Source of the DNA: an uncultured Desulfobacteraceae bacterium
Lineage (GTDB): Bacteria > Desulfobacterota > Desulfobacteria > Desulfobacterales > UBA5852
Assembly: GCA_913060875.1 (NCBI GenBank)
Contig: CAJXSL010000001.1
Coordinates: forward strand, 124,001 to 188,000
DNA: 64,000 bases
Reading direction: 5' to 3'
Every line of letters starts with the position of its first letter. The first letter of the stretch is position 1. The notes under the pieces were generated by a model. That model did not search any database. It had not been told where the DNA came from and saw nothing but the letters and a program-made list of their open reading frames with translations. Of the stretch, positions 42,155 to 62,611 are shown piece by piece. The translations under genes and the position numbers were made by a program.

Positions 42155-42166
42155 TTGGTTGACCAA
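42155..42166. promoter_or_regulatory. Likely TetR operator
   Basis: TTGGTTGACCAA is a 12-bp palindrome (5-2-5) overlapping the predicted transcription start, 20 bp before the TetR start codon. A repressor bound here would block the promoter, the usual autoregulation of TetR proteins. Confidence 0.5.
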
Positions 42167-42185
42167 ACAAAAAAAAGGATTGTCC

Positions 42186-42764: not shown

Positions 42765-42875
42765 AATGGTCCGCGGTCATTGAGTCGCCACCGGGTCCGG
42801 GTCCGATGTGGTTTGGGCTGACGACGGTCGTGCCGCTGATAATGCCAACCATCCAAAATGGGGAGGGTCTTGTCG

Positions 42876-44216: not shown

Positions 44217-44252
44217 TATGGTTTTCAGGGATATCGACAGGGAGGTAAGGTC

Positions 44253-44297
44253 ATGTCTGGTATAGGGAAAAAACCGGTCATCACCGCCAAGCATTAG
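44253..44297 (+). CDS. Very short open frame with strong ribosome site (gene remnant?)
   Basis: ATG 44253 follows a CAGGGAGGTAAGG ribosome site and gives 14 residues (MSGIGKKPVITAKH) before a stop. KKPVITAKH looks like the beginning of a normal protein rather than a leader. It may be the stub of a decayed gene between the oxidase and the amidohydrolase. Confidence 0.25.
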   Translation: MSGIGKKPVITAKH

Positions 44298-44437
44298 GGA
44301 AAAGCCATCGCGCATTTTCGCTGCCCACAGATGATTCTTTTTCCTGGAATGAACGCGTGTCTGGCCTGACAGTGAGATGGCCGGTGGAAATTGGCCTTCG
44401 CGAATTCCTCGCAGCCATTGCTTGAAAGGAAGGTGTC

Positions 44438-45424
44438 ATGATTATCGACGCCCATTGCCATCTGGGTGATATTCTCTACCCCGAGGGTGGTAAACTGATC
44501 GGGAAAAGAGGTGTCCGCAAGGCGGGCGGACTGGACCTGATCAGCATTTCCGAGGCCAGTCTGCACAATGGCGCGGGGGGGATGACCGCGCTGGTGCACA
44601 AAATGCTGGCCAACCTGGTGACCCGGGCGGAGCGCAAGCGCAATGCCGCCGCGACTTACGAAAACATGCGTGCTTCGATGGACGCGAATGGTGTGTCCTA
44701 TGCCGCTTGCATGCCGATACCCCCTTACGTAACTTTTGACGACCTGGCGCGGACTGCGCAGTTTGATGAATCGATCCTGCCTTTCACGGGGGTGGATTTT
44801 GGCAGCGCCAACGATGTGGATGTTTTGCTGCAGCGCGATGTGACCCGTGGTGCCAGGGGGCTCAAGCTGCACCCCATCATTCAGCAAATGCCCCTGGACG
44901 GTCCGGAGGTGATGGGTGTTGTCGAGGCCTTCGCCCCACATGATCTTCCCGTCCTGTTTCACTGCGGCATGTCGTCCTACTACCTTGGGTCGGAGAAAAC
45001 GCATCGTCAGAGGCCTGAACTGGGCCGCATTGAGGACGCCAGGCGTCTGGCCGCTGCCTTCCCAGGGGTTGCCTTTATTGCCGGTCATGCCGGTCTGTTC
45101 GAGGTGCAGAAGACCATGGATTTTTTAGGACCCTTGAAAAATGTGGCCGTGGACATTTCATTCCAGTCGCCAGCCACGATCCGAAAGTTGCTGCAAGTCT
45201 TCGGTCCCGAGCGTGTCCTGTATGCATCGGATTGGCCCTACGGAAATCACCGGCCTGCCATCAAGGCGGTTCGAAAGGCCTGTCGCGGTGATGATCACAT
45301 GGCCCATATGCTGCTGGCTGACAATGCTGCTCGCCTGCTGAATATTCACGATTCTCTGCCCATGGCAACCGGGCGCAAGCGAGCACCTTCGGCCCCAAAG
45401 AGCAAAAGCGGCGGGAGCCTCTAA
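44438..45424 (+). CDS. Amidohydrolase-2 family TIM-barrel protein
   Basis: A 328-residue metal-dependent hydrolase or decarboxylase. Metal ligands are visible: IIDAHCHLGD at the N-terminus (HxH), VLFHCGMSSYY, AFIAGHAG, and Asp in LYASDWPYG. The family includes hydrolases and non-oxidative decarboxylases of aromatic or lactone-like acids; the exact substrate is unknown. GAAAGGAAGG precedes the ATG. Its stop codon lies inside the left end of the family A palindrome that separates it from the convergent aldo/keto reductase gene. Confidence 0.85.
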   Translation: MIIDAHCHLGDILYPEGGKLIGKRGVRKAGGLDLISISEASLHNGAGGMTALVHKMLANLVTRAERKRNAAATYENMRASMDANGVSYAACMPIPPYVTFDDLARTAQFDESILPFTGVDFGSANDVDVLLQRDVTRGARGLKLHPIIQQMPLDGPEVMGVVEAFAPHDLPVLFHCGMSSYYLGSEKTHRQRPELGRIEDARRLAAAFPGVAFIAGHAGLFEVQKTMDFLGPLKNVAVDISFQSPATIRKLLQVFGPERVLYASDWPYGNHRPAIKAVRKACRGDDHMAHMLLADNAARLLNIHDSLPMATGRKRAPSAPKSKSGGSL

Positions 45425-45442
45425 CCCTAATATTTCATGAAA
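45423..45442. repeat. Repeat family A, short palindromic copy between convergent genes
   Basis: AACCCTAATATTTCATGAAATGTTCGGGCT-like palindrome of 20-30 bp filling the 26-bp space between the stop codons of two convergent genes. It is nearly identical to 4305-4334 read on the other strand. Confidence 0.7.
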
Positions 45443-45450
45443 TGTTCGGG

Positions 45451-46239
45451 CTAGAAGAAAGACCGCTGGCGGTGGACATGATCGCCGATGGTGCGCATGC
45501 GTGCCTGTTCGTCATCATCCATCGGTGGGCTGTCCAGGGTTTTCAGGGCGGCGTCCATCTGGGCCATATCCCGCGGGCCGCAGAGGCAGGCATGGATGCC
45601 CGGTTGGGACAGGACGAAGCGGTAGCAATCCGTGCTGGAGGGCGGCTTTTCGCCCGGCGGCATTTTTTTGGGGTTCAGCAGATGCCCCCAGCGTGTCGCC
45701 GTGTAGGAGACGACGCCGGCATCGCCGAGATGGGGAAAGGCCTCGGTGGCCGCCCCCCGGTGGGCGGCATTGTAGCGGATGTGAAACAGATCGAAGTCGC
45801 CGGTTGCGGCCATCCGGGGAAAAAGCGGCCGCTGGTGGCCGCTCATACCGATAAAACGGACCATGCCCCGGCGTTTCATATCGAGCGCCCGGTCGATCAG
45901 CCGTTGCGCAGGCGCCTTGTTATGCCAGCCCAGCAGGAAAACATCGGCATGGTCGATCGCGAGGCTTTTCAGGGCCCGGGCAAGGGAAATCTCCATCAGG
46001 GCGGCCGAGCGGGCATAGCTCTGGACGGCCACCACCAGGTTGTCCCGCTGCCCGCGACCGCAGATGCTGCGGATCGCTTCCCGCATACCGGATTTGCGCG
46101 ACGTCCAGTAGAAATAGTTGCAGCCGCGCTCGAAAGCTTTTTCAAAGGCAGCCGCCGGGGCGCCGTAGCCGGCACCGAGGCCCAGCCGACCGACGGAAAG
46201 ACCGGTGCGGCCAAGTGTCCGGGGTTCGGTAAACGTCAT
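45451..46239 (-). CDS. Aldo/keto reductase-like protein with degenerate active site
   Basis: A 262-residue protein with an AKR N-terminus (RTLGRTGLSVGRLGLGAGYG) and barrel pattern. The usual catalytic positions look altered: the FDTAxxYG motif reads YFYWTSRKSG, and the strand that normally carries the catalytic Lys (ATK) reads VAVQS. The HADVFLLGWHNKAP segment with its His is kept. It may have a different chemistry or be a non-enzymatic relative. ATG 46239 follows GGGGGAAAGGA. The frame is open further upstream, over the divergent hydrolase gene, but this is not used. Confidence 0.75.
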   Translation of the reverse strand: MTFTEPRTLGRTGLSVGRLGLGAGYGAPAAAFEKAFERGCNYFYWTSRKSGMREAIRSICGRGQRDNLVVAVQSYARSAALMEISLARALKSLAIDHADVFLLGWHNKAPAQRLIDRALDMKRRGMVRFIGMSGHQRPLFPRMAATGDFDLFHIRYNAAHRGAATEAFPHLGDAGVVSYTATRWGHLLNPKKMPPGEKPPSSTDCYRFVLSQPGIHACLCGPRDMAQMDAALKTLDSPPMDDDEQARMRTIGDHVHRQRSFF

Positions 46240-46350
46240 GTCCTTTCCCCCTTTTTTCGTATTGACTTTAAAATTGATCCGAATGGCGGTAAGAGATGGT
46301 TCGGTTTGCGTTGCAGACCCAACGTCCCCATCCCGAGCACAGAGGTAATG

Positions 46351-47322
46351 ATGGTTCAGGAAATAGCGCAGGATTTGTACCGAATCAAGGTGCCGCTGCC
46401 CGAAACCCCGTTGAAGTATCTCAATGCCTATGCCGTGCGATCCCCGGAGCGAAGCCTGGTGATCGACACCGGTTTGAATCACGACACTTGCTTCGAGGCC
46501 CTGACGGGTGGGCTCAAGGAGCTCGGGATCGACCCGGCCCGGGCTGACTATTTCATCACCCATTTGCATTCGGATCATTTCGGGCTCATCACCCGGCTGG
46601 CCACCGCCGACACGCGCGTCTTCTTCAACCGGCCGGATGCCGAAATCATCGAGAACTGGCAGGGGTTCGGCCCCATGCTGGCCTATGTTGAAAAAAACGG
46701 GTTCCCGGTCGAGCGGTTGAAGGCGGTTCTGAAGGCCCATCCGGGCAGCAAATTCGGCACGGACTGGGTGCCGCCCCTGCAGATGCTGGGGGAAGGGGAT
46801 GAGATCCGGTGCGGGGACTACACGTTCCAGTGCATCGAGACCCCGGGCCACACCCTGGGCCATACCTGTCTCTATGAACCCGCCCGTCAGCTATTCATCG
46901 CCGGCGACCACATCCTGGCCGGTATTACCCCGAACATCCAGTGCCTGGCGGAAGGGCGCAATCCCCTGAAGCAATATCTCGCGAGCCTGGAAAAAATTCG
47001 TCCCTATGATGTCGATCTCGTGCTGCCCGGGCACCGGCGGCTGTTTTCCGATTTCAGGGGGCGCATCCAGGAGTTGATCAGCCACCATAAGGAGCGTCTG
47101 GACGAGGTGCTGGCGATTCTCGAAGACGGCCCGCAGACGGGTTATGATGTGGCCGCACGCATGTCCTGGGATATTGTCGCCTCCGATTGGGACCATTTCC
47201 CGGTGGCCCAGCAATGGTTCGCCACCGGTGAAGCCCTGGCTCACCTGCGTTATCTGGAAGCGGCGGGCCGGATCCAACGCCAGAACCTCCAGGACGTTGT
47301 CCGTTTCTACCGCGACAACTGA
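46351..47322 (+). CDS. Metallo-beta-lactamase-fold hydrolase (LACTB2-like)
   Basis: A 323-residue MBL-fold protein. The metal motif is FITHLHSDHFG, with later His in ETPGHTLGHT and GDHILAG and PGHRR near the end of the fold. The C-terminal 70 residues (YDVAARMSWDIVASDW...AHLRYLEAAGRIQR) form a winged-helix-like tail as in LACTB2-type hydrolases. Substrates in this group range from thioesters to nucleic acid. The AGAGG ribosome site favours ATG 46351 over 46348. It is divergent from the aldo/keto reductase gene. Confidence 0.87.
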   Translation: MVQEIAQDLYRIKVPLPETPLKYLNAYAVRSPERSLVIDTGLNHDTCFEALTGGLKELGIDPARADYFITHLHSDHFGLITRLATADTRVFFNRPDAEIIENWQGFGPMLAYVEKNGFPVERLKAVLKAHPGSKFGTDWVPPLQMLGEGDEIRCGDYTFQCIETPGHTLGHTCLYEPARQLFIAGDHILAGITPNIQCLAEGRNPLKQYLASLEKIRPYDVDLVLPGHRRLFSDFRGRIQELISHHKERLDEVLAILEDGPQTGYDVAARMSWDIVASDWDHFPVAQQWFATGEALAHLRYLEAAGRIQRQNLQDVVRFYRDN

Positions 47323-47578: not shown

Positions 47579-47599
47579 TTTAAATAGGGGATGAATGTC

Positions 47600-48250
47600 A
47601 TGCCAAAACCCCAGCGCAGCCCCCAGGAAATCGAGGCCGTTCGCGAAGACATCCTGCACCATGCCCTGGATATGATCGCCACGGACGGGTTCCAGACCTT
47701 CAGCATGCGCAAACTGGCCGCCCGCCTGGGGATTGCCGCCAAGACCATCTACAACTACTACCGCAACCAGGACGAACTGTACCTCTGCATCCTGATCAAG
47801 GGATTTGAACAGCTCTATAGCGTTTTTGCGAAGGCGGTTCGAACTTCTTCCGACCCCATGACCCAACTGGAGGCCGCCATCGAGGCCTATGTGGATTTTG
47901 GTCTTGATAATGCCAATATCTACAACCTGATGTTCACCTGGCACGTGCCCAAATACAACGACTACGTCGGCACCCCCATGGAAAAAGCAGCCTATCGCGA
48001 ACTGGAAGTCGCCCTCCGGTGTGCCGATCTGTTTCTGGATGTCCTTGCGGCCTGCCTGGGAAAAGGGCGGGAAGAGATCGAAGACGTGTTGCGTTTTGAA
48101 ATGATCGCCGTCTGGTCGCAGATGCATGGCTATATCGCCGGGGTCAACAACACCCTGCTGGACTATATGCACGCAAAACCGATGGACCTGAAGCGCCGCC
48201 TCGTGGAACGGCTGGTCGCGAATACACGACAGGCCCTCAAGGTTCTATGA
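47600..48250 (+). CDS. TetR-family transcriptional regulator of the glycyl-radical locus
   Basis: A 216-residue regulator. HTH: REDILHHALDMIATDG...FSMRKLAARLGIAAKTIYNYYRNQDELY. The C-terminal domain is helical and probably binds a small ligand. ATG 47600 is better spaced from GGGGAT than ATG 47591. It begins the plus-strand set that continues with the activase, two reductases and the glycyl-radical enzyme, so it probably controls all of them through the tandem palindromes just upstream. Confidence 0.92.
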   Translation: MPKPQRSPQEIEAVREDILHHALDMIATDGFQTFSMRKLAARLGIAAKTIYNYYRNQDELYLCILIKGFEQLYSVFAKAVRTSSDPMTQLEAAIEAYVDFGLDNANIYNLMFTWHVPKYNDYVGTPMEKAAYRELEVALRCADLFLDVLAACLGKGREEIEDVLRFEMIAVWSQMHGYIAGVNNTLLDYMHAKPMDLKRRLVERLVANTRQALKVL

Positions 48251-48360: not shown

Positions 48361-49320
48361 ATGACGGCCCCCCCTCCCCATGGCGAGCGGAACGCTTCGG
48401 AAGAAGCCGCCCCCCTGATTCTGGATGTCAAAGGCAATTCACTGGATGACGGGCCGGGTATTCGTTCGGTGGTGTTTTTCAAGGGTTGCCCGCTGACCTG
48501 CGTCTGGTGCCACAATCCCGAGAGTAAAAAAGCGGCCGCGGAACTGGCATACGATGCGGGCGCCTGCACGGGATGTGAAACCTGCCTGACGGCATGCGAA
48601 AAAGGGGCCCTTGACCGCAATCTTCCGGGATATGTCGACCGACAAGCCTGCGATCGGTGTTTTGCCTGCGCGGCGGTTTGCCCTTCGGGCGCCCTGGAGC
48701 GGGTGGGGCTGGAAAGGTCGGTCGATGAGATTACGGCGAGCATCCTCAAAGACAAACCGTTTTTCGACACCTCCGGCGGCGGGGTGACCTTTTCGGGGGG
48801 TGAGCCGACCCTGTTTCCGTCTTTTCTTGGGCGTCTGGCCGAATCGATCAAGAGGGCCGGGGTACATACCCTGTTGGAAACCTGCGGATTTTTCGACGGG
48901 GAGCGCTTTGCCGCGCTTGTCCTGCCCCACCTGGATACCATCTACTTCGATCTGAAATTGTTCGACCGGGCCGCCCACCGACGATTTTGTGGCCTGCCCA
49001 ACGATGTCCTTATTGATAATTTTCTTACCCTGGCCGACCTTGCGCACCGGGGCGCTATTGAACTCCTGCCCCGAATCCCCCTGGTCCCCGAAATTACGGC
49101 CACCGAAGCCAATATAGCGGCCTGGGCGGAATTTCTAGCGCGCCATCACTGGGGCGAAGTGAAGTTGCTGGCCTACAATCCGCTTTGGCCTGAAAAGGTT
49201 GCCAAAATAGGAGAGGACAATTCTCTTGCCGGCCAGGACGGCATGCAGACCTGGATGCCTGCGGAGGAGGTTGCCCGACTGGAAGACGTTTTCCACCGGG
49301 CCGGGATTGCAACCCTTTAA
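48361..49320 (+). CDS. Glycyl-radical enzyme activase (radical SAM)
   Basis: A 319-residue radical SAM protein. The SAM-cluster Cys motif is CPLTCVWC (C-x3-C-x2-C) after GIRSVVFFKG. Between this and the rest of the barrel lies a ferredoxin-like insert with two 4Fe-4S motifs (CTGCETCLTAC; CDRCFACAAVC), typical of activases for dehydratase/lyase-type glycyl-radical enzymes rather than PflA of pyruvate formate-lyase. SGGGVTFSGGEPTL binds SAM. It makes the glycyl radical on the large enzyme encoded 1.8 kb downstream. The ribosome site is weak. Confidence 0.94.
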   Translation: MTAPPPHGERNASEEAAPLILDVKGNSLDDGPGIRSVVFFKGCPLTCVWCHNPESKKAAAELAYDAGACTGCETCLTACEKGALDRNLPGYVDRQACDRCFACAAVCPSGALERVGLERSVDEITASILKDKPFFDTSGGGVTFSGGEPTLFPSFLGRLAESIKRAGVHTLLETCGFFDGERFAALVLPHLDTIYFDLKLFDRAAHRRFCGLPNDVLIDNFLTLADLAHRGAIELLPRIPLVPEITATEANIAAWAEFLARHHWGEVKLLAYNPLWPEKVAKIGEDNSLAGQDGMQTWMPAEEVARLEDVFHRAGIATL

Positions 49321-49344: not shown

Positions 49345-50349
49345 ATGAAAGCGGTTGTCACCGGGGCCACGGGATTCATCGGGTCCGTGCTTTGCCGGGA
49401 TCTCCACGACCGCGGCTGGAACATCCGTGCCCTGGTATTGCCGGGCGAAGACTACGGTCACATCGCTCCCCAGATCACCGAGGCCGTCAGCGGCAATATC
49501 ATGCGGCCGGATAGCTTGGCGGATTTTGCCGAGGGTGCGGATGTGGTTTTCCACCTGGCGGCGCGCGTTCTCGACTATGGATCGAGGAAACAATTCTACG
49601 ACCCCATTTTAGGCGGCACCCGCAATGTGCTGGCGGCCTGCGCCGGCAAGGCCATACGGTTTGTCCAGGTAAGTTCCATGGCGGCCTGCGGGCTGGGCCG
49701 TCATCTCAAGGGGCAGACCGAAAACGATCCCTGCTGCAAGTCGGGTGTGCCCTATAACGATGCCAAGCTCGATGCCGAGGCGGAAGTCCGGCGATATCAT
49801 GACCGTTTCGAACAGGGCACCACGATCGTCCGTCCGGCCAATGTGGTGGGGCCCCGAAGCGCATGGGTGGACGAGGTCTGTCGCCAACTCTGGAAAGTGA
49901 CAGGGCTGCCATTGATCGACGGCGGCCGTCACAGCGCCAGCCTGGTTTACGTCGACAACCTGGTGGACGGTATCATTCGGGCCGGAACCTGTGCGGAGGC
50001 GTCCGGTCAGATTTACCATTTGAGGGACGACTGGCAAGTGACCTGGGAGCGCTATCTGAACGATATTGCGGCCCTGGTTGGGAAGAAGCCCCGGGGGCAG
50101 GTACCTTTTCGCGTGGCTTGGCATGTGGGCGGGATGGTGGAACGCCTGTGCATACCCCTGGGCCTCCGGCCGCCGCTGACCCGCCTGGCGGCCGGTGTAA
50201 TGGGACGTGACAACGACGTCTGCAACACCAAGGCGAAAGCCGAACTGGGATGGAAGACGCGGGTCACATACGAGACCGGTATGGCTTGCATTGCCAGCCA
50301 TGTCACAAATACGATTCTGCCGGAACTGGTTGGGGAGACATCACCATGA
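49345..50349 (+). CDS. NAD-dependent epimerase/dehydratase-like (extended SDR)
   Basis: A 334-residue extended short-chain dehydrogenase. VTGATGFIGSVLCRDL is the NAD-binding glycine motif. The usual YxxxK is visible as YNDAKLDAE, and RPANVVGPRS is the downstream motif. The family includes sugar-nucleotide epimerases and 3-beta-hydroxysteroid dehydrogenases; the latter is the better match in style. ATG follows AACGGGAGG. It overlaps the next SDR by 4 bp. Confidence 0.88.
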   Translation: MKAVVTGATGFIGSVLCRDLHDRGWNIRALVLPGEDYGHIAPQITEAVSGNIMRPDSLADFAEGADVVFHLAARVLDYGSRKQFYDPILGGTRNVLAACAGKAIRFVQVSSMAACGLGRHLKGQTENDPCCKSGVPYNDAKLDAEAEVRRYHDRFEQGTTIVRPANVVGPRSAWVDEVCRQLWKVTGLPLIDGGRHSASLVYVDNLVDGIIRAGTCAEASGQIYHLRDDWQVTWERYLNDIAALVGKKPRGQVPFRVAWHVGGMVERLCIPLGLRPPLTRLAAGVMGRDNDVCNTKAKAELGWKTRVTYETGMACIASHVTNTILPELVGETSP

Positions 50350-51122
50350 CGTTTGATCTTAAGGGAAAGGCCGTCGTCTTGACCGGCGGCAGCCGCGGGA
50401 TCGGGCGCAGTACCGCCTTGGCACTGGCCCGCGAAGGGGCCCGTCTGGCCGTGATGGCACGCAGCGAAGGCGGGTTGGCGAAAACTGTCCGTGCTGTGGC
50501 GCGCGAGGGGGGGCAGGCCGCACCGATGGCCTGCGACATCACCGACGATGCATCCGTTCACAACGCCGTCGACCGGGCGGCGCAGGTCCTGGGCGGTATC
50601 GACGTTTTTTTGAACGTCGCCGGCATTACCCTGCAGAAACCATTGCTGGAGGCGGAACCGGAAGACTTTATGCCGGTGATGAACACGAATCTTCTGGGGG
50701 CCGTGCGCTGCACCCGATGTGCCATACCCTACCTGCGCGATCGCCGGGGGGTGGTGGTGAACGTGGCCAGCATTATCGTCAGCAATCCCTTTCCGCACAT
50801 GGGGGTCTATGCCTGTTCCAAATGGGCCCTGGCGGCCTATAGTCACACCCTGCGCCAGGAGCTTCATGGCACGGGCGTTCGCGTGCTGACCGTCTATCCT
50901 TCTATCGTGCGCACCGACATGCTGGAAGAAGAACCCGTACTGGCCCGCGCACCGTCCCAATCGCCGGATGCCTGCGCCCGGGCCATTGTGAAAGCGATAA
51001 AAAGGGGGAAGCAGGAGGCCGGAACGGCCTGGCTGCCGAAAATTTCCGGAGCACTGTTCAAACTGTACCCGCCCTGGGGCGACCGGATCAACCGGTTGTT
51101 TTTGCCCCGAGGCTACAAATGA
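50346..51122 (+). CDS. Short-chain dehydrogenase/reductase
   Basis: A 258-residue classical SDR: TGGSRGIGRSTALALAREG for NAD(P), NVAG, a catalytic Ser in VNVASIIVSN, and YxxxK in YACSKWALAAYS. The C-terminal tail (FKLYPPWGDRINRLFLPRG) is longer and more hydrophobic than usual. It overlaps the preceding gene by 4 bp and is 24 bp from the glycyl-radical enzyme gene, so all are on one transcript. A keto-reductase or alcohol oxidation step in the same pathway is likely. Confidence 0.93.
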   Translation: MTFDLKGKAVVLTGGSRGIGRSTALALAREGARLAVMARSEGGLAKTVRAVAREGGQAAPMACDITDDASVHNAVDRAAQVLGGIDVFLNVAGITLQKPLLEAEPEDFMPVMNTNLLGAVRCTRCAIPYLRDRRGVVVNVASIIVSNPFPHMGVYACSKWALAAYSHTLRQELHGTGVRVLTVYPSIVRTDMLEEEPVLARAPSQSPDACARAIVKAIKRGKQEAGTAWLPKISGALFKLYPPWGDRINRLFLPRGYK

Positions 51123-51146: not shown

Positions 51147-54100
51147 ATGGCCATGGTGTTTTTTCAGACGACACCGGCGGGCGAGGCGTCTTCGGATCGG
51201 GCGCACGGCAAATCGGCCATCCAATGGGTGGTCAAACTGCTGCTGCGGCTCATGGCGGCCAGCTTCAATTACCGGCCGACCCTCCGCAAAAATTTGAAAA
51301 GCGATCAGGGCTGGATCAACTTTACGGTCGGAATTTGCACCCGGTCACGATCGGTGGAGGCGGCCATTCAATTCAAGCAGGGACGCCTATCGGTATTGCA
51401 CACCATTCCGACCGATGCGGAAATCGTCCTGGTGTTCAAATCGGATGCGGCCGTGCGCAAATTCCTGACCGCCACGCCCACCGAGCAGGTCCACATGATT
51501 CTGCAAAATGATTTCTATACGGTCGGTAACGCATCCTATCTGAACCTGTTCGTCTACTGCCTTTCGCTTCTTTTGAACAAAAAACAGATCCGGATGATGC
51601 AGAAGGAGCGCCGGCAGGATCGCAAAAAACTGGCCCGGGCCGCGCCGGAAGCAAAACCCCACCTCTCCGAGGAACTGCAGGCCCGCCGTGAAACCCGCCT
51701 GACCGGCGCCAGGGTCGATCCCGGGGTTCTTTTTTTGGAAGATCCCTATCTGTCCGCGTACGGTCTTGAAAATTTTCCCCGTGTCGCCGCCTTCCTGGAC
51801 GCGCATTTCGAAACCCGGGCGGAAGTCTGCCCGGAACTGCCGAAACTGGTGACGGACTGGCACAAAATCCATGGCTATGAAACGGATGCCGAGGGCCGGC
51901 CGTGGCATCCGGTCCTGCGCAAAGCCCATTGCTACAAGCACACCATGGAAAACCGCCATCCCATCATCCACGCCAATGATTTGATTGCCGGAACCACCAC
52001 CACCAAAGATATCGGCGTGGTGGTCTACCCGGAAGGGCATGGCACCATGATCTGGGGGGAACTGCTGACCGTACCCCACCGATCCCTGAATCCTTATGAT
52101 GTCGCTGCGGAAACCCGGCAGTTGCTTCATCACGAGGTATTCCCCTACTGGGCCAACCGCAATTTCAAGGAATGGGTCCGCCGGAAATACGACAACCCCC
52201 TGGGCCAGCAAATCGACGAACGCTGGGCCGTTTACTTCAATTGGAAGTCGGTCACCATATCCCACACCATCCCGGACTTCCCGAAGATATTGCGGCTTGG
52301 TGCCAAGGGGATCATCGCGGAGATCGAGGCTGAACTGACGGCCGATGTCGATGACCCTGACAAAACCGCCACCCGCCGGGCCATGATCCTGTGTCTGGAG
52401 GGCCTGATGGCCTATGCCGCCAACCTGGCCCGCCAGGCGGCGGCCGAGGCGCTGGAAACGGAAGACCCTGTGCGTCGAGAGGAGCTCGAACACCTGGCCC
52501 GGGTCTGTGAACAAGTGGTGGCCAGACCGGCCCGCACCCTGGATGAAGCGGTCAATGCCGTCTGGATCACCTGGGTCGGATTGCACATGGAAAGCACCAA
52601 TGCTGGGCTGTCCCTGGGGCGCCTGGACCAGTGGCTGCAACCTTATTTCGAGGCGGACATGGCGTGCCTGGACGGCCTGGAAGACCGGGAGGCCTACGTT
52701 AAACATGCGATCGAACTGATCGGCTGTTTCATGATGCGCTGTACCGACCACCTGCCCCTGACACCTGACTTTGCCAACTATTACTTCGGCGGCAGCTCGT
52801 CGGACCAGGCCATCACTCTCGGTGGTGTCACCCCGGAAGGAGAAGACGCGGTCAATGACATGACCTACATCTTTCTCAAGGTGACCGAGATGCTCAGCAT
52901 CCGGGACCCCAATGTCAACGCACGCTGCCACCTGGGCAAGAACAGCGACACCTACCTCAAACGTCTCTGCGAAGTCAATTTGACCACTGCGGCCACACCC
53001 TCCATGCACAACGACGAGACCATTTGGGCGTCGCTGGCCGAGTTCGACTACGCCACGGAGGATCTACGCAACTGGTCGGCCACCGGCTGTGTCGAGCCGA
53101 CGTTGTCGGGCAAGCACATGGGGCACACCAACTTTCAGATGATCAGCCTGGTGGCGGCCCTGGAGATGGCCCTGAACGATGGACGGCACCCGCTGATGGA
53201 CTGGAAGATCGGTCCGGACACCGGGCGTGTAGAGGACAGCACCTTTCAAACCTTTGATCAGTTCTTCGATGCTTTCGAAAAACAAATGGGGTTTCTCATC
53301 AAGCAGTCCATCGCCTATAACGAGATGCTGGCCCGGGCCCATCAGGAGATTCGCCCCACTCCCATGCTTTCCACCCTGATTGATGATTGCATCCGGGACG
53401 GTCAAGATGTCACCCGCGGCGGGGCCCGGTATAACAGTTCCGGGGCGGCCTGCATCGGTCTGGCGGATGTCACCGATTCACTTCTGGTGGTCAAGAAACT
53501 GGTATTCGAGGAAGGCAAGGTGTCTTTCGCCGATCTGAAACAGGCCATCGATACCAACTTTGAAAACGATCCCGCTTTGCACGCCATGATTACCCGCAAG
53601 ATTCCTTTTTTCGGATCTGGCCGTACCGAGGCGGTAGCCATGGCCAACCGGGTCACCCGCTTCGTGCATGACAGCTATGGCCGACACCCCCATTACCGCG
53701 GCGGTCGTTATACGGCTGGCTTTTGGTCCATGTCCAACCACGTGGCCTATGGCACGTTGAGTGGCGCCCTGCCGTCCGGACGTCTCAAAGGCAAGCCGTT
53801 TACGCCGGGGTTGACGCCCCAGCCGGCCGCATCCAACAATTTACTGGACAATCTAAGAGACGTGGCCGCTCTGGACCCAGGCAACATGAACAACAACATT
53901 GCCTTTAATGTAAAGGTGGTCCCCGGGGCGGGCGAACCACGGGATAAAACCGTGAACACCATGTTTTCCTATGTCAAAACCTATTTTCAACTGGGGGGCA
54001 TGCAGATGCAGATGAATGTCGTTACCTCGGCCATGCTGCGCGATGCCATGGCCCACCCGGAGAACTACCGCAATCTGCTGGTGCGCATCTCGGGCTACAA

Positions 54101-54170
54101 CGCCTATTTCGTGACCCTCAATCGGGATATGCAGCTGGAGTTGATCGAGCGGGCGGAATACGGGCTTTGA
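51147..54170 (+). CDS. Glycyl-radical enzyme with N-terminal SCP2-like extension
   Basis: A 1007-residue enzyme. The C-terminal glycyl-radical site is RISGYNAYF (Gly983) and the active-site thiyl residue is Cys648 in ATGCVEP, followed by Glu650. The C-x-E pattern groups it with diol dehydratases and C-N/C-S lyases rather than pyruvate formate-lyase or benzylsuccinate synthase. The usual enzymes of the family have about 790-850 residues. The extra 170 or so at the N-terminus (for example FTVGICTRSRSVEAAIQF and DAEIVLVFKSDAAVRKF) resemble an SCP2 sterol-carrier domain, which binds lipids. A hydrophobic substrate is therefore suggested. Neither a microcompartment shell gene nor an aldehyde dehydrogenase is adjacent. 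Confidence 0.9.
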   Translation: MAMVFFQTTPAGEASSDRAHGKSAIQWVVKLLLRLMAASFNYRPTLRKNLKSDQGWINFTVGICTRSRSVEAAIQFKQGRLSVLHTIPTDAEIVLVFKSDAAVRKFLTATPTEQVHMILQNDFYTVGNASYLNLFVYCLSLLLNKKQIRMMQKERRQDRKKLARAAPEAKPHLSEELQARRETRLTGARVDPGVLFLEDPYLSAYGLENFPRVAAFLDAHFETRAEVCPELPKLVTDWHKIHGYETDAEGRPWHPVLRKAHCYKHTMENRHPIIHANDLIAGTTTTKDIGVVVYPEGHGTMIWGELLTVPHRSLNPYDVAAETRQLLHHEVFPYWANRNFKEWVRRKYDNPLGQQIDERWAVYFNWKSVTISHTIPDFPKILRLGAKGIIAEIEAELTADVDDPDKTATRRAMILCLEGLMAYAANLARQAAAEALETEDPVRREELEHLARVCEQVVARPARTLDEAVNAVWITWVGLHMESTNAGLSLGRLDQWLQPYFEADMACLDGLEDREAYVKHAIELIGCFMMRCTDHLPLTPDFANYYFGGSSSDQAITLGGVTPEGEDAVNDMTYIFLKVTEMLSIRDPNVNARCHLGKNSDTYLKRLCEVNLTTAATPSMHNDETIWASLAEFDYATEDLRNWSATGCVEPTLSGKHMGHTNFQMISLVAALEMALNDGRHPLMDWKIGPDTGRVEDSTFQTFDQFFDAFEKQMGFLIKQSIAYNEMLARAHQEIRPTPMLSTLIDDCIRDGQDVTRGGARYNSSGAACIGLADVTDSLLVVKKLVFEEGKVSFADLKQAIDTNFENDPALHAMITRKIPFFGSGRTEAVAMANRVTRFVHDSYGRHPHYRGGRYTAGFWSMSNHVAYGTLSGALPSGRLKGKPFTPGLTPQPAASNNLLDNLRDVAALDPGNMNNNIAFNVKVVPGAGEPRDKTVNTMFSYVKTYFQLGGMQMQMNVVTSAMLRDAMAHPENYRNLLVRISGYNAYFVTLNRDMQLELIERAEYGL

Positions 54171-54289: not shown

Positions 54290-55774
54290 ATGGAAATTCG
54301 GATGGGAAAACGATTTTTCGTCTCGATAACCGCGGCACTCTTCATGGCCGTGATTGATCCGGCGATTTTAACGGTGAAGGCTGCAGAAACGTCTACGGAA
54401 ACCGACGCACCGCGTCCCAACGTCATCATCGTCTACTGTGACGATTTGGGCTATGGCGACCTGGGGTGCTACGGCAGCCGGGCCATTGCCACTCCGAATG
54501 TCGATCGGCTGGCCCGGGAAGGGGTGCGGATGACCGACTACTATGCCTGCAACGCCATTTGTGCGCCTTCGCGGGCCGGACTACTGACGGGCCGCTATCC
54601 GTTCCGCTCCGGAGTGATCGGCAATGTCTACCCCCAGGATGAACCGTTTACGCGCAAAGCCGCCCGTGAGTATGTCGGGGGCTCCATGCGAGGCTTGGGG
54701 GTTCTCGATTTGCGGGAAGGAGAGGTGGTCACCGGCATTCCCGCCAGGGAGCTTCTTTTGAGCGAAGCCCTGAAAACCGCCGGCTACCGCACCGCCATGA
54801 TGGGTAAATGGCATCTCGGGGACTACAGCCTCGACCCGGCTTACAACCCACGGCGCAACGGGTTCGACTTCTACCTCGGGGTGCCGCACAGCAACGACAT
54901 GCTGCCCTGTCCCCTGTTCCGCAACGAGGAGATGCTCCAGGCGAATATCGGGACCGACCAGGCCAAGCTGACCGGCCTGTATACCCGGGAGGCCGTGCGG
55001 TTTATCAAGGAGGCCAAGGACAGCGCTTTTTTCCTCTACCTCGCCCATACCTTTCCGCACCAACCCCTGTATGCTTCGGCTGCGTTTGCCGGCAAATCCA
55101 ATGCGGGCAAATTCGGGGATGCCGTGGAGGAGATCGACTGGAGCCTCGGCCGCATCTTGGCGACCCTGCGCGAAACGGGCGCCGAAGACAACACGCTGAT
55201 CTTTTTCACCAGCGACAACGGCCCCTGGTTCGAGGGCAGCGCCGGCCCTTTTCGGGGGCGCAAGGGCCAGAGCTACGAAGGCGGTTTTCACGTTCCCATG
55301 ATCGCCCACTGGCCGGCCGCGCTCCCGGCCGGGACCGATTGCCGGGCACTCTGGATGAACATCGACATCTACCCGACGGTGCTTGCTCTGGCAGGCGTGT
55401 CGCTGCCGGAAGACCGCATCATCGACGGCCGCAACGTTATCGATCTGCTGACCGGTCGCCAGATGCAATCGCCTCACGAATCCATCGTTTTCTGCCATTA
55501 CGACCAACTGGAAGGCATCCGGATGGGGCAATGGAAATATTTCCGCCGGCTGAACCGTTATGTCTGGCCGATTCCGCTGGATGCGGCCCCCATTCCCGAC
55601 AAGCTCGGGCGCAGCCAACTGGGAAACCGCTGGCCGCTGCTGTATGACTTGGCTCTGGACCCCGGTGAGAATTACAATGTTATCGATACCTACCCGGACG
55701 TCGCCGCCAGACTGGAAAAACGTATGCGGCAGTGGGAGAAGGCGGTGGCGGAAAATCCAGGCGGCTGGCTTTAA
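54290..55774 (+). CDS. Secreted sulfatase (arylsulfatase family)
   Basis: A 494-residue exported sulfatase. Signal region near residues 4-32. NVIIVYCDDLGYGDLGCYG has the first metal Asp residues. The formylglycine motif is CAPSRAGLLTGRYP (Cys91, C-x-P-S-R). GKWHLGD and TSDNGPW are further family motifs. It removes sulfate esters in the periplasm. GGGAGAGG ribosome site. It is 119 bp from the glycyl-radical enzyme gene on the same strand and could supply that pathway's substrate, but the link is only positional. Confidence 0.93.
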   Translation: MEIRMGKRFFVSITAALFMAVIDPAILTVKAAETSTETDAPRPNVIIVYCDDLGYGDLGCYGSRAIATPNVDRLAREGVRMTDYYACNAICAPSRAGLLTGRYPFRSGVIGNVYPQDEPFTRKAAREYVGGSMRGLGVLDLREGEVVTGIPARELLLSEALKTAGYRTAMMGKWHLGDYSLDPAYNPRRNGFDFYLGVPHSNDMLPCPLFRNEEMLQANIGTDQAKLTGLYTREAVRFIKEAKDSAFFLYLAHTFPHQPLYASAAFAGKSNAGKFGDAVEEIDWSLGRILATLRETGAEDNTLIFFTSDNGPWFEGSAGPFRGRKGQSYEGGFHVPMIAHWPAALPAGTDCRALWMNIDIYPTVLALAGVSLPEDRIIDGRNVIDLLTGRQMQSPHESIVFCHYDQLEGIRMGQWKYFRRLNRYVWPIPLDAAPIPDKLGRSQLGNRWPLLYDLALDPGENYNVIDTYPDVAARLEKRMRQWEKAVAENPGGWL

Positions 55775-55856: not shown

Positions 55857-56999
55857 CTAAGCGGCCATTGCCAATCCCAGCGCTTCGGCGTTGATGATGC
55901 TCGGTGCGGCCTGGGGCGGCGCGTCTCCCAGAAAGGGCAGGATGTCCGGCTTGTTCCAGGCGGGATAGCCCATCAGCAGGCCCGCCACATTGGAAGCCGC
56001 CAGGGTCGCCATGCCCTGGCGCGTCCAACTGGTGGCCGAAGCGATGTGCGGGACGATGATGACGTTGTCGAGTGCATCCAATCCGGCGGCCATCTCCGGT
56101 TCATTCTCGAACACATCCAAACCCGCACGGAAGTCGGGATGGGTGCGGCAGTGGGCCACCAAATCGTCTTCCTTGATGACGGGACCGCGGCTGGTGTTCA
56201 CCAGGATGGCGTTTTTTTTCATCATGCCGAGGCGTTCGGCGTTGATCATGTGGCGGGTGGTGTCATCCAATACGGTGTGGATGCTGACGCAATCCGCCTC
56301 CTGTAGCAGGGCTTCGATGGTGTCCATCCGGCGGCAGGTCACCGGCGTCTGGCCGCGGGTGGTCTGCAATGCGCTGTAGGCGGCCAGATCTTCTTCCAAT
56401 TGCGGGTTCGGGTAGAGATCGTAGTAGATCACGTTCATGTGGTGGCCCTGGGCCATCATGCGGGCATAGGTTGCCCCGATGCGTCCGGCGCCGATGATGC
56501 CCACGGTTTTGCCCATCAACAGTTCCCCGAGAAAGAGGGTCGGCAGCCAGCCTTGGTAGCGGCCGGCCCGCAGGTAGCGCTCGGCTTCACCGATCCGGCG
56601 TGCGGCGGCGAACGTCAGCGTTACCGCCATCTCGGCCGTGGTCTCCGTCAGCACACCCGGAGTGTTGCCCACCGGAATGCCGATCCGGGTGGCCGCCGCC
56701 ACATCCACGTTATTGAATCCGACGGCATAATTACTGTATGCCGTGCCGCCGGCCTCGCGCAACGCGTTGAAGAGCGTCGCGCCCCAATCCTCGGTCAACT
56801 GGCCGATGGCGGCATGGCAGCTTGTGCCGATGGCCGATTGGATGGCCTCGACCGTCAGCACATCCGGCGACGTGCAGATCTCGACCCGGCAGTCGGCCGC
56901 GGTGAGGATCTCCAGCCACCGCTCCCCGGGTAATTCCTTGGTGACCACTACCCGAAAACGTCCTTCCGGGTGATGGACACGCCATTCGTAGGTTCCCAT
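55857..56999 (-). CDS. D-isomer 2-hydroxyacid dehydrogenase
   Basis: A 380-residue NAD(P)H enzyme of the hydroxypyruvate reductase/phosphoglycerate dehydrogenase type. NAD motif MGKTVGIIGAGRIGATYARM. Catalytic Arg in NTSRGPVIKEDDLV, Glu in LDVFENEPEM, His in IIVPHIASAT. The N-terminal part (YEWRVHHPEGRFRVVVT) is a little longer than the norm. ATG 56999 follows GGGGAGGAT; the frame is open further to 57113. Last gene of the minus-strand operon; likely reduces or oxidises a 2-keto/hydroxy acid of the pathway. Confidence 0.9.
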   Translation of the reverse strand: MGTYEWRVHHPEGRFRVVVTKELPGERWLEILTAADCRVEICTSPDVLTVEAIQSAIGTSCHAAIGQLTEDWGATLFNALREAGGTAYSNYAVGFNNVDVAAATRIGIPVGNTPGVLTETTAEMAVTLTFAAARRIGEAERYLRAGRYQGWLPTLFLGELLMGKTVGIIGAGRIGATYARMMAQGHHMNVIYYDLYPNPQLEEDLAAYSALQTTRGQTPVTCRRMDTIEALLQEADCVSIHTVLDDTTRHMINAERLGMMKKNAILVNTSRGPVIKEDDLVAHCRTHPDFRAGLDVFENEPEMAAGLDALDNVIIVPHIASATSWTRQGMATLAASNVAGLLMGYPAWNKPDILPFLGDAPPQAAPSIINAEALGLAMAA

Positions 57000-57211
57000 A
57001 TCATCCTCCCCGGCCGATGCATCCGATTTGGCATGTTGCCGCCCACGCCCGGAGGCATCGGCCGTTCCGGGGGGCTTGGATGGATGAGGAGGGCATCGCG
57101 ATGGAAGAGACAATGCCGTCGGATGTATACGCGAGTGCGGCGATTGGTCTGGCTGCGATATCCCAAGGGAGGAAAGGAGGATGCCTTCCAGGCGATCCCC
57201 TCCCCATACAG

Positions 57212-58231
57212 CTATTTCCGTTTAACGACCTTTTCGGCCGCGGCCGCGATATGCGGCGCCGAAAGTCCGTATTTGTCGAGCAGGTCCAGATAGGGGCCCG
57301 ACTCGGCAAACGTGTCCTGAACGCCGATGCGCTGCATGGGCAGCGGCAGATTTTCCGCCAGGAGTTCCGCCACGGCACTGCCCAGGCCGCCGAAGACAAC
57401 ATTGTTTTCGGCCGTCACGACCGCACCGGTCTCCCGGGCGGCCGCCAGAATCGTTTCGGTATCCAGCGGTTTGAGCGTCGGGCAGTCAATGACCCGGGCG
57501 TCGATGCCTTTGGCCGCCAGACGTTCGGCGGCCACCAGGGCATGGGCGGTCAGATCCCGCATGGCGACGATGGTCACGTCCTGGCCGTCCCGCACGGTGA
57601 CGGCTTTGCCGATCTCAAACGGATAGTCCGCGGTGAAGATCTTGGGAACCGGATCACGCGTGAAGCTGAGGTACACCGGTCCCTCGTAAGCAGCGACGGC
57701 ATGGATGGCCATCGTGGTGGTATCCGGATCGGCCGGGGCGATGACGGTCGAATTGGCGATGGCGCGCATGATGGAGAGATCCTCCTGCCCCTGGTGGGTA
57801 ACCCCGTCCGGACCCGGCGTGATGCCGCTGTGGCTGGCAGCGATTTTAACGTTCAGGCCCGGGTAGTGAATGGCATTGCGGACCATGTCCAGGGCGCGCA
57901 TGCTGGCAAACACCGCATAGGTGCAGGCAAAGGGGATCAGGCCGGTGGTGGCCATCCCGGCTGCGGCGGCAAACATGTTTTGTTCGGCAATGCCGAAGTT
58001 GAAGGCCCTATCCGGATATGCGGCCGCAAACTTGTTGGTGCCGATGGATTTGGAGACATCCGCATCCAGCACGACCACGTTCGGATTGCGGGCACCGATA
58101 TCGATGACGGCCTTGGCAAAGCTGGCCCGGGTGGGGGCTTTGTCTGCCTTGGTGAACAGTTCGCCGGATGACAGCATGGGTAGAACTTCGGGGCGCACAT
58201 AATGATAGGGGGATGGTTGGTTATTGCTCAC
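57212..58231 (-). CDS. Transketolase, C-terminal subunit
   Basis: A 339-residue protein equal to the pyrimidine-binding and C-terminal domains of transketolase: RASFAKAVIDIGARNPNVVVLDADV, NFGIAEQNMFAAAAGMA with the catalytic Glu, and TVRDGQDVTIVAMRDL at the C-terminal domain. The start is GTG 58231 after AGGAGGTG and it overlaps the N-terminal subunit gene by 11 bp. Split transketolases usually serve sugar or sugar-acid catabolism operons, moving a two-carbon ketol group. Confidence 0.93.
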   Translation of the reverse strand: MSNNQPSPYHYVRPEVLPMLSSGELFTKADKAPTRASFAKAVIDIGARNPNVVVLDADVSKSIGTNKFAAAYPDRAFNFGIAEQNMFAAAAGMATTGLIPFACTYAVFASMRALDMVRNAIHYPGLNVKIAASHSGITPGPDGVTHQGQEDLSIMRAIANSTVIAPADPDTTTMAIHAVAAYEGPVYLSFTRDPVPKIFTADYPFEIGKAVTVRDGQDVTIVAMRDLTAHALVAAERLAAKGIDARVIDCPTLKPLDTETILAAARETGAVVTAENNVVFGGLGSAVAELLAENLPLPMQRIGVQDTFAESGPYLDLLDKYGLSAPHIAAAAEKVVKRK

Positions 58232-59063
58232 AGCTGCACCTCCTGATCTCTTCCAGGGCCTGATCGGCTTCTTCCTTGCAGGGCGCCTTGCCGTGCCATT
58301 CACACACGTTTTCCATATAGGAAACGCCCTTACCCTTGACGGTCCGGGCCAGGATCAATGTCGGCCCGCCCTTTCGTTCCTTGGCATCTTCAAGCGCTGC
58401 AACGACGGCCGCCATGTCATGGCCGTCGATGTCCACCACGTGCCAGCCGAAGGCCCGCCATTTGTCGGCCACCGGTTCGATGGGCATGAGTTCGTCCACG
58501 TGCCAGTCGTTCTGGAGGTTGTTGCGGTCGAGAATAGCGGTGATGTTGTCCAGCTTCCACTTGGCGGCCGACATGGCGGCTTCCCAGATGGACCCCTCCT
58601 GGGATTCACCGTCGCCGATGATCACCCAGACGTGATAATCCTTTTTCTGGAGCCGGCCCGCCAGGGCCATGCCGATTCCCACGGAAAGCCCCTGGCCCAG
58701 GGAGCCGGCCGTCATATCGATGCCCGGGACCTTGTTCATGTCCGGATGCCCCTGGAGGATGCTGCCCAGCCGGCGCAGGGTGCCCAAGTGGGATTTTGCG
58801 AAGAAGCCGCGCTCTGCCAGGGCCGCGTACCAGACCGGGCAGGCGTGGCCTTTGGACAGAATAAACCGGTCCCGGTCGGGCCAGCGGGGGTTGGCCGGGT
58901 CGATATTCATCAAACGGAAATAGAGGGCTGTGACAATATCGGTGGCGGAGAGCGATCCGCCCGGATGGCCGGCTTCCGCGGTGCAGATCATTTCAATGAT
59001 GTCACACCGGATGGTGGCCGCCATGGCCTTGAGTTCATCTACCGACATGGGTACCTTAGCCAT
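58221..59063 (-). CDS. Transketolase, N-terminal subunit
   Basis: A 280-residue thiamine-diphosphate-binding half: AGHPGGSLSATDIVTALYF near residue 30 and the TPP motif GDGESQEGSIWEAA...NNLQ (GDG-x26-N). Also PGIDMTAGSLGQGLSVGIGMA. ATG 59063 follows AAAAGGAGG. It overlaps the C-subunit gene and forms an alpha2-beta2 enzyme with it. Confidence 0.94.
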   Translation of the reverse strand: MAKVPMSVDELKAMAATIRCDIIEMICTAEAGHPGGSLSATDIVTALYFRLMNIDPANPRWPDRDRFILSKGHACPVWYAALAERGFFAKSHLGTLRRLGSILQGHPDMNKVPGIDMTAGSLGQGLSVGIGMALAGRLQKKDYHVWVIIGDGESQEGSIWEAAMSAAKWKLDNITAILDRNNLQNDWHVDELMPIEPVADKWRAFGWHVVDIDGHDMAAVVAALEDAKERKGGPTLILARTVKGKGVSYMENVCEWHGKAPCKEEADQALEEIRRCSCEQ

Positions 59064-59121
59064 GATGTGTTTACCTCCTTTTGATCGGTGCCGCTGCTGT
59101 TCACCGGCGGCGGTCGGTCCG

Positions 59122-59982
59122 TTATGCACTGGCGGCACCGAATTCCTTTTCGATGGCTTCCAGAACCTCGTCGGACATTTTGTAGGAATGTTCTTCCCCG
59201 GGGAAGACGCCGGTGCGAACCTCCTCGGCATACCGGGCAAAGGTCTCTTTCATGAGACCGTTGAAATCCTGGTAGCGCTTGGCGAAACCGGGCGTGAAAG
59301 CGTCGAACATGCCCAGGACATCCGGTGTCACCAGGAGTTGGCCGGAGCACCCCGGCCCCCCGCCGATGCTGATGGTGGGGACGCGCAGCTTCCGGGTGAC
59401 ATAGGCCGACAGCTTGGCCGGAACGGCTTCGAAAATGATGGCGAAGACACCGGCCTCCTGCAGGGCCAGGGCTTCGCGGACGACTTTGCGCGCGGTTTCA
59501 ACGGATTTGCCCTGAACGGTGAGGCCCCCCAGGGCGCCGACCGCCTGGGGGTGCAGGCCGACGTGGCCGACCACCGCGATGCCCATCTCCACGATGGCCC
59601 GGGTTTTTTCGATATGCCGGGGCGTGGCTTCGAACTTGACGGCGTCCACTTTGGCTTCGGTGACAAAGCGGGCGGCGTTGCGCATGGTCTCTTCGATACC
59701 GTACTGGAAAGACCCGAAGGGCATGTCCGCCACTACCATAGTGCGATTGCACCCCCGGGCCACGGCGGCACAGTGCAGCACCATCATGTCCATGGTGGCG
59801 GTGAGCGTGTTGGGGTGCCCGTGCACCACCATGGCACAGGAGTCGCCCACCAGAATCATATCGATGCCGGCGTCATTGATCTGTTTGGCCGTGGGGTAGT
59901 CATAAGCGGTCAGCATGGTGATGGTTTCACCGTTGTCGCGCATTTGCTGAATGGTTCGGACCGTGTGCTTCTTCTGGTTCAT
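59122..59982 (-). CDS. PanB-like ketopantoate hydroxymethyltransferase homologue
   Basis: A 286-residue TIM-barrel enzyme with the PanB family blocks: MLTAYDYPTAKQINDAGID, LVGDSCAMVVHGHPNT, VDAVKFEATPRHIEKT and ISIGGGPGCSGQLLVTPDVLG. Classic PanB adds a hydroxymethyl group from methylene-THF to a keto acid. In a catabolic operon with no other pantothenate gene it more likely works in the reverse direction or as an aldolase on a hydroxymethyl-branched keto acid; that is inference. Its start overlaps the preceding kinase gene's stop by 4 bp. Confidence 0.87.
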   Translation of the reverse strand: MNQKKHTVRTIQQMRDNGETITMLTAYDYPTAKQINDAGIDMILVGDSCAMVVHGHPNTLTATMDMMVLHCAAVARGCNRTMVVADMPFGSFQYGIEETMRNAARFVTEAKVDAVKFEATPRHIEKTRAIVEMGIAVVGHVGLHPQAVGALGGLTVQGKSVETARKVVREALALQEAGVFAIIFEAVPAKLSAYVTRKLRVPTISIGGGPGCSGQLLVTPDVLGMFDAFTPGFAKRYQDFNGLMKETFARYAEEVRTGVFPGEEHSYKMSDEVLEAIEKEFGAASA

Positions 59983-61409: not shown

Positions 61410-61421
61410 AGGTGATGTTCG

Positions 61422-62387: not shown

Positions 62388-62397
62388 GTGGTCCTCC

Positions 62398-62610
62398 TTA
62401 CTGCGCCGGTATGCCGGCCGCCGCTGTTTCAATATGGATAGCGATGAAATCACGGGTTTGCGCGTATTCTGCCCGACAGTGCTCCGGCGGACAGATGATT
62501 TCAATGTTCTCGAGATCCTCCGTCATCTGTCGGGCCGAAAAGCGGTCGCCGAAGCGGGATATGAAATAGGCCGGTGAAACACCGATCACCGGTGGGGCCA
62601 TTGCGTCCAT
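62398..62610 (-). CDS. Short frame resembling the N-terminus of a second TIM-barrel isomerase
   Basis: A 70-residue frame between TctA and the isomerase gene. VIGVSPAYFISRFGDRFSARQMTEDL looks like the first strand and helix of a TIM-barrel sugar isomerase, but the chain stops after about 70 residues, too short for the fold. Its start touches the stop of TctA (62612-62614) and it ends 11 bp before the next start, so it is probably translated. It may be a truncated gene. Confidence 0.4.
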   Translation of the reverse strand: MDAMAPPVIGVSPAYFISRFGDRFSARQMTEDLENIEIICPPEHCRAEYAQTRDFIAIHIETAAAGIPAQ

Positions 62611-62611
62611 G

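Follow-up and report, generated by a model that had tools for sequence, protein, structure and literature searches.

What does a glycyl radical enzyme (GRE) do with a domain that resembles a lipid carrier? This question is raised by one gene in a stretch of 64,000 nucleotides from an uncultured Desulfobacteraceae bacterium (contig CAJXSL010000001.1, positions 124,001 to 188,000; the whole stretch is called the window below). Positions 51147–54170 (+) form an open frame whose translation yields a product of 1007 amino acids. The GRE catalytic domain (residues 184–1007; 51696–54167, +), delimited by Pfam and a full-length structural model, is preceded by an SCP2-like domain, which has a lipid-carrier fold, and a helical linker (together residues 1–183; 51147–51695, +); the SCP2-like part spans residues ~22–145 in the AlphaFold (AF2) model m3bcfa7ec758f. 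The reading proposed here, with a probability of roughly 0.6, is that the protein acts as a glycyl radical eliminase on an amphiphilic molecule and that the SCP2-like domain holds the tail of this molecule.

The catalytic domain

Both parts of the GRE fold are recognised by Pfam, PFL-like at residues 250–869 (E 5.2e-165; 551 bits against a cut-off of 24.3) and Gly_radical at residues 886–989 (E 5.8e-23; 81.9 bits against 22.2). Barrel and glycyl radical domain score above their curated cut-offs and an activase is encoded alongside, which places the protein in the GRE superfamily. Homology assigns the thiyl radical site and the acid/base Glu to Cys648-Val649-Glu650 (53088–53096, +); Gly983 (54093–54095, +) is the glycyl radical site, and His373 (52263–52265, +) is the counterpart of His164 in glycerol dehydratase (GD). 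A preliminary description of this gene had given the length of 1007 residues, Cys648-x-Glu650 and Gly983, all of which agree with the translation. The adjacent pair of active-site Cys that characterises pyruvate formate-lyase, according to the available part of PMC8163825, is absent from the window GRE, which has Gly647-Cys648. The true start may be Met3, at 51153, because a AGGGGAGGT stretch lies immediately 5' of the first ATG. Promoter and terminator scans gave no excess over shuffles.

All NCBIfam matches of the window GRE remain under their curated cut-offs: PFL2-3 (485 against 678 bits), the CutC model TIGR04394 (389 against 1050), the HypD model NF043068 (381 against 1100) and the HpsG model NF048011 (365 against 1000). 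The enzyme therefore falls outside the curated functional families. In a structure comparison of residues 184–1007 the nearest entries are diol dehydratases (9rcp, Z 46.9; 5i2g, 46.8; 1r8w, 46.2); the IslA structure 7kq3 reaches Z 40.8, and BSS and MASS structures reach 35.8–38.4. The full-length AF2 model has a pLDDT of 90.6 and a pTM of 0.91, and because this pTM is high, the model suggests that the placement of the N-domain relative to the catalytic domain is fixed.

The same genome contains three further GRE matches, none of which covers the N-domain. A GRE of this genome other than that of the window (L004) has no PDB match at E 1e-100, and a trans-4-hydroxyproline dehydratase is also encoded (G000:C8:49138–51483, L234; 1231 bits against a cut-off of 1100).

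The SCP2-like domain

The additional N-terminal residues noted in the preliminary description are real. In the full-length model about 180 residues precede the GRE fold, which begins near residue 184–211, and the domain recurs in homologs; a chance extension is ruled out by these two observations. Of 45 homologs, 43 have the N-domain; because it served as the query that retrieved them, this count is in part built in. A contig scan based on catalytic-domain patterns gave 70 distinct GREs, 68 of them with the N-domain. A hidden Markov model of the first 43 domains detects it in 103 of 107 distinct GREs of 100 loci, many of which were found by the domain; the 107 are those left after removal of copies identical over residues 101–900. 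The four GREs that lack it are shorter, additional GREs of these loci.

Several methods connect this domain to SCP2. With a limit of E 1, 21 of the 43 homologous N-domains match Pfam SCP2 (best E 2.3e-6); any other Pfam family is matched by 2 of them at most. A PDB search with a profile of the 43 returned only three sequences at E up to 10, all of them SCP2. The AF2 model of residues 1–180 (mean pLDDT 85.6) retrieves AF1534, UbiJ-SCP2, alkylsulfatases and SCP2 proteins in Foldseek (3bn8, E 7e-6; 6h6p, UbiJ-SCP2, E 8e-6), and its best VIA-align partners are 4axh (Z 13.6; root-mean-square deviation 2.2, 105 residues aligned), 8af3 (Z 12.5) and 1ikt (Z 12.2; 2.5, 111 aligned). The first 21 rows of that comparison lie at Z 11.1–13.6 over 98–118 residues, and the last rows displayed at about 6–8. 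Alignment by hhalign with eight Pfam-recognised SCP2 domains from the same genome gave a probability of 87% (E 4e-6). Taken together, the family-level Pfam matches, the predicted fold and the hhalign result make it very likely that the N-domain is a divergent SCP2-like domain; as modelled, its fold is that of SCP2. The likeness to SCP2 that had been proposed for residues 1–175 is thereby borne out.

An enzyme joined to an SCP2-like domain is also found in the SdsA1/Pisa1-type alkylsulfatases, which score VIA Z 11.5–13.6 against the N-domain. SdsA1-type alkylsulfatases are metallo-hydrolases that carry the domain C-terminally and work without radical chemistry; their SCP2-like domain is thought to hold the alkyl chain. 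No GRE joined to SCP2 is described among the matches listed in the literature searched, a body of text with subscription journals and preprints mostly outside it.

The same genome has eleven SCP2 matches (L159–L163; G000 C15, C18). Three of these lie in one open frame of 1016 amino acids, and one ends a long protein that contains a short-chain dehydrogenase/reductase (SDR) and adjoins a thiolase-like protein (both read by eye).

Distribution of the fused family

The preliminary description had treated the protein as a single case. The fusion stands, but it is not alone; it belongs to a large family that has a split sister clade. The GTDB contig scan with catalytic-domain patterns retained the best 80 of 374 relatives. 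The alignment of every one of these begins at residue 44 or before and runs to residue 977 or beyond, N-domain included; since relatives were ranked by full-length match, this set favours those that bear the N-domain, and the remaining 294 lie outside it. The taxon labels among the best 80 fall into six phylum-level groups (Desulfobacterota/Deltaproteobacteria, Spirochaetota, Actinomycetota, Chloroflexi, Myxococcota and SAR324), with the proviso that 79 of the 80 are metagenome-assembled genomes (MAGs), so that individual assignments may be wrong. The one cultured carrier is Desulfatibacillum alkenivorans DSM 16219 (L117), and a genome of the window's own order has the same GRE (L049), so that the order of Desulfatibacillum is the probable source of the window. 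Fused or separate, the domain is matched in 69 of 291 genomes of a class-wide sample, with up to four matches per genome, and in 48 of 395 genomes of a phylum-wide sample. A tblastn search of 72,556 plasmids matched 140 records; the best has 30.5% identity over 77% of the query, and there is therefore no close copy among the plasmids searched.

Three loci (L052, L053, L054) hold two or three fused SCP2-GRE paralogs within one run of genes. A single activase accompanies all paralogs in L052 and in L053, and none lies in the run of L054; L053 and L054 mix GCVEP and GCVEI copies, and L052 has two GCVEI copies. The paralogs perhaps act on different substrates. At L071:9497–14081, a fused SCP2-GRE is broken by what resembles, by eye, an IS256-type transposase frame.

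A sister clade with a separate SCP2-like protein

In a second GRE family (~820 amino acids; L177–L196, L055:1552–4465, L074:2381–7000) the SCP2-like domain is a separate small protein. The class-wide sample yielded 26 short open frames with the domain, three of which (41–49% identity) were taken as fragments of fused genes; 22 of the remaining 23 were examined, the frame in G276 being left out. In all 22 (the 20 fetched loci L177–L196, L055 and L074) the small gene adjoins the GRE gene. Seventeen of the 20 fetched loci have a called open reading frame (ORF) of 136–177 amino acids that starts between -23 and +113 bases after the same-strand GRE frame; in the other three, the domain match lies just downstream of the GRE and a longer frame masks the ORF. 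The separate protein and the fused domain are related to each other with an hhalign probability of 99% (E 3.4e-18). The usual order in the split operon is GRE, SCP2-like protein, activase. DUF6765, a family without assigned function, and an unnamed family are often nearby; three ORFs of the latter had no Pfam match.

The relationship between the two families was examined in a FastTree (LG) phylogeny of 95 catalytic domains and 747 columns, which sampled 42 of the 102 fused proteins (a selected set and 30 drawn at random; the broken L071 copy was left out) and 20 split GREs, and which contained no IslA, BSS or MASS sequences. The fused and the split GREs form sister groups with a joint support of 1.0 and a stem of 0.59, and the next outgroup is Archaeoglobus fulgidus PflD (2f3o; support 1.0). 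CutC, HypD, HpsG, GD with PDDH, E. coli PflD, YbiW and PflB are placed elsewhere; support does not exceed 0.1 at several of the deeper nodes. On the simplest reading, the SCP2-like partner joined the lineage once and was then fused or split once. Membership in the sampled dehydratase and lyase clades is ruled out by this position together with the sub-cut-off NCBIfam scores: the catalytic domain falls within no sampled reference clade. The earlier proposal of a radical lyase or dehydratase for a hydrophobic substrate stands in its first part, as a C-x-E enzyme outside the known clades; the hydrophobic substrate is suggested by the resemblance of the fold to a carrier, by the repeated association of that domain with GREs and by a genomic context that carries little weight.

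The nearest outgroup also provides the GCVEI motif found in some members of the fused family. Unlike these, the solved chain of A. fulgidus PflD (776 amino acids) has no N-domain; it is 30% identical.

Residues of the active site

Residues were compared in an alignment numbered by GD, in which the GD Cys falls at 433 as expected; the longest-frame rule misframed one HpsG row and the background rows L200 and L201, for which frames were re-picked for the tree. GCVE is present in 45 of 45 homologs. Counterparts of Cys433, Glu435 and His164 occur in 102 of 102 fused proteins and that of Gly763 (Gly983 in the window) in 101, with one gap, so that the dehydratase core of Cys, Glu, Gly and His164 is kept in full in the window GRE. 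At GD positions 281, 282, 339, 447 and 640 the window protein has Ala486, Gly487, Asp553, Asn662 and Trp860. Ala, Gly, Asn and Trp at 281, 282, 447 and 640 recur in 78, 94, 82 and 102 of the 102 fused proteins. Position 640 is Trp without exception in the two clades (18/18 split GREs as well) and Tyr, Leu or Ser in 13 reference GREs; Trp303, Arg345, Lys367, Ser372, Asp587 and Asn591, among others, are also common to both clades and rare in these references.

Compared with the B12-independent diol and glycerol dehydratases (R. inulinivorans PDDH and C. butyricum GD), the window family shares the GRE fold (Z 46–47), 28–30% identity and the core residues, but it forms a separate clade, lines the pocket mostly with Ala, Gly, Asn and Trp, and has the SCP2-like domain in addition.

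These residues also bear on the possibility that the enzyme activates alkanes or other hydrocarbons by addition to fumarate, in the manner of an alkylsuccinate synthase (Ass). Relatives are present in Desulfatibacillum and Smithella, two genera associated with the degradation of alkanes. According to the available part of PMC8163825, A. fulgidus PflD, the nearest outgroup, has been proposed to have Ass activity. In BSS and MASS, however, fumarate is bound through an Arg at Cys+15 (Cys493/Arg508 and Cys477/Arg492, as given in the accessible portion of PMC12358834), and none of the 102 fused proteins has Arg there. C-x-E and the dehydratase His do not vary, structures of BSS and MASS score below the diol dehydratases, and A. 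fulgidus PflD itself carries C-x-E, His and Asp447. With the eliminase residues kept, the polar diol pocket mostly lost and the fumarate Arg absent, fumarate addition appears unlikely from the aligned residues, and a hydrocarbon-activating enzyme of this type is a very improbable identity. The name alkylsuccinate synthase was set aside for want of Arg at Cys+15.

The operon and its surroundings

The genes directly upstream, all on the same strand, would form an operon with the GRE. A TetR-family regulator, probably of this operon (47591–48250, +), belongs to an ORF cluster found in 56 of 100 loci. It is followed by the radical SAM activating enzyme of the GRE (48361–49320, +; TIGR02494, 261 bits against a cut-off of 174; cluster in 64/100 loci), an extended SDR of epimerase or 3-beta-HSD-like type (49345–50349, +; similarity to OleD and HpnA far under cut-off; cluster in 20/100) and a classical SDR (50346–51122, +, with its likely start at 50346; cluster in 16/100), which lies within a longer frame (50250–51122; adh_short, E 6e-52 for that frame). 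One relative scanned has both SDRs in a single protein (632 amino acids). PDB neighbours of the SDRs are generic and give no pointer to the substrate. In strict same-strand runs around the 102 GREs, the activase occurs in 63 and TetR in 55. Such neighbour counts are lower bounds: contig ends lie inside some loci, and ORFs were called by length, which hides some small genes and cuts some runs, the window's own included.

Further out, the raw counts over 100 loci are 15 for an acyl-CoA-ligase-like cluster, 10 for aldehyde:ferredoxin oxidoreductase (AOR) and 8 for glycerol kinase; these identities come from one or two scanned members each, and no curated cut-off was attained by the ligase. In 8/100 loci AOR adjoins the GRE operon or diverges from it: seven loci of one lineage, whose GREs are 75–96% identical, have it divergent from the TetR-GRE operon, and L105 has it directly downstream. 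Glycerol kinase is found in those seven loci, and also in a Chloroflexi MAG (L135), where a GlpD-like protein accompanies it; it lies 4–6 genes from the GRE. In one Smithella MAG the upstream genes include those for a FadB-like protein and a thiolase. As evidence on the substrate, this outer context is weak.

The glycerol kinase genes, present near the GRE in two lineages, with the GlpD-like protein in one, would fit a radical C-N or C-O lyase. The leaving group would then be an amine, from a sphingoid base or amino-alcohol lipid, or an alkoxide, from an alkylglycerol or alkyl glycol ether, with ammonia or a fatty alcohol formed beside the carbonyl product. The pocket, which differs from that of diol dehydratases and has Gly at GD 282 in 94/102 fused proteins, as in 3/3 CutC, is consistent with this. 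CutC is itself a C-x-E lyase with the GLSLGR motif and a Z of about 45. Yet it has Asp where the window family has His, as dehydratases do, it forms a clade of its own, and its model gives the window GRE 389 bits against 1050; glycerol kinase, at a distance of 4–6 genes, may be unrelated. A lyase of this kind seems improbable, at perhaps one chance in several.

Elsewhere in the window, a type I sulfatase (Pfam; 54290–55774) begins ~120 bases after the GRE and contains a CAPSR motif, presumably the sulfatase signature. It was set aside as a member of the system, its ORF cluster C859 being present in no other listed run. The upstream block at 42159–47322 encodes a TetR protein (BetI-like, below cut-off), a DAO-type oxidoreductase, an amidohydrolase and a metallo-beta-lactamase-fold protein. 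On the opposite strand (55860–63991, -) lie a 2-hydroxyacid dehydrogenase, a split transketolase, a ketopantoate hydroxymethyltransferase, a SBD_N/NBD_C sugar-kinase-like protein, a xylose-isomerase-like barrel and a TctA transporter; this cluster may serve the uptake and breakdown of a sugar acid.

Proposed mechanism

In GRE chemistry, an activase generates a glycyl radical, which gives rise to a thiyl radical; hydrogen abstraction from the substrate is followed by elimination and a carbonyl product. By homology, the window enzyme would follow the same course. The activase (48361–49320) would install the radical on Gly983, which would oxidise Cys648 to the thiyl radical, and this would take a hydrogen from the OH-bearing carbon of the substrate head group. 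With Glu650 and His373 as base and acid, a leaving group carried by the adjacent carbon would depart as water, or possibly as an alkoxide or amine, yielding an aldehyde or ketone. By analogy with the SdsA1-type alkylsulfatases, the SCP2-like N-domain would grip the hydrophobic tail, or fetch the substrate from the membrane, and offer the head group to the barrel. The SDRs encoded in the operon would then take over the carbonyl product, as would the neighbouring AOR in some relatives. Candidate substrates are, in order, a long-chain 1,2-diol or 1-O-alkylglycerol and then an amino-alcohol or other polar lipid; both this class and the fate of the product are suggestions.

A number of observations weigh against an eliminase that holds its substrate by an SCP2-like domain. 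In the window GRE, the GD pocket residues His281, Ser282, Asp447 and Tyr640, which we take to be the diol-binding positions, are replaced; a simple diol reading is therefore insecure. The window N-domain (residues 1–175) has no match to Pfam SCP2 (PF02036) and nothing convincing elsewhere in Pfam, and the PDB profile search reaches SCP2 at an E of about 0.07 only. Among the separate partners, one of five scanned matches Pfam SCP2, just under the cut-off (E 6.5e-4), and a PDB search with a profile of 13 of them returned no SCP2, the best match being FtsH (E 0.06). The SDRs are a minority feature, present in 16 (extended) and 10 (classical) of the 102 same-strand runs. The acyl-CoA-ligase-like, AOR and glycerol kinase clusters may reflect one-lineage synteny or chance, and none of the three was identified near the GRE in the window.

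It is also conceivable that the SCP2-like domain does not bind the substrate and is instead a membrane anchor, a dimer or solubility element or a lipid-sensing switch, with catalysis on a small polar diol, polyol or amine. In fold, the catalytic domain comes closest to enzymes whose substrates are propanediol, glycerol and choline. The available part of PMC12358834 reports only improved expression solubility for the gamma subunits of BSS and HPAD. According to the same portion of that source, GREs typically function without accessory subunits; BSS, MASS and HPAD resemble the window family in having a dedicated small partner, but theirs are HiPIP- or rubredoxin-like, while here it is SCP2-like, fused or separate. 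MASS beta is proposed there to secure the alkane, which speaks for substrate contact. Against a purely structural role are also the position of the catalytic domains outside the sampled polar-substrate clades, the replacement of most polar GD pocket residues, the retention of the SCP2-GRE pairing both as fusion and as separate gene, and the alkylsulfatases, among the best VIA matches, which combine an SCP2-like domain with an enzyme for alkyl substrates. A domain without contact to the substrate is accordingly considered unlikely.

Implications for the family

A clade found again and again with a lipid-carrier-like domain directs attention to radical chemistry acting on lipids of membrane type or of hydrocarbon origin. 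To our knowledge, the substrates so far assigned to C-x-E GREs are all small and polar. The relatives of A. fulgidus PflD are filed as alkylsuccinate synthases in the part of PMC8163825 that is available, and the missing Arg argues against this name here.

More tentatively, and with odds somewhat short of even, the two families may constitute a lipid-handling GRE branch: a carrier-fed radical eliminase that opens the head groups of long-chain diols, alkylglycerol ethers or other resistant membrane lipids under anoxic conditions. The fused family would offer a concrete enzyme with which to test how resistant lipids such as ether lipids are opened in the absence of oxygen. Such a branch would give access to anaerobic breakdown of lipids at a step for which no enzyme is known to us.

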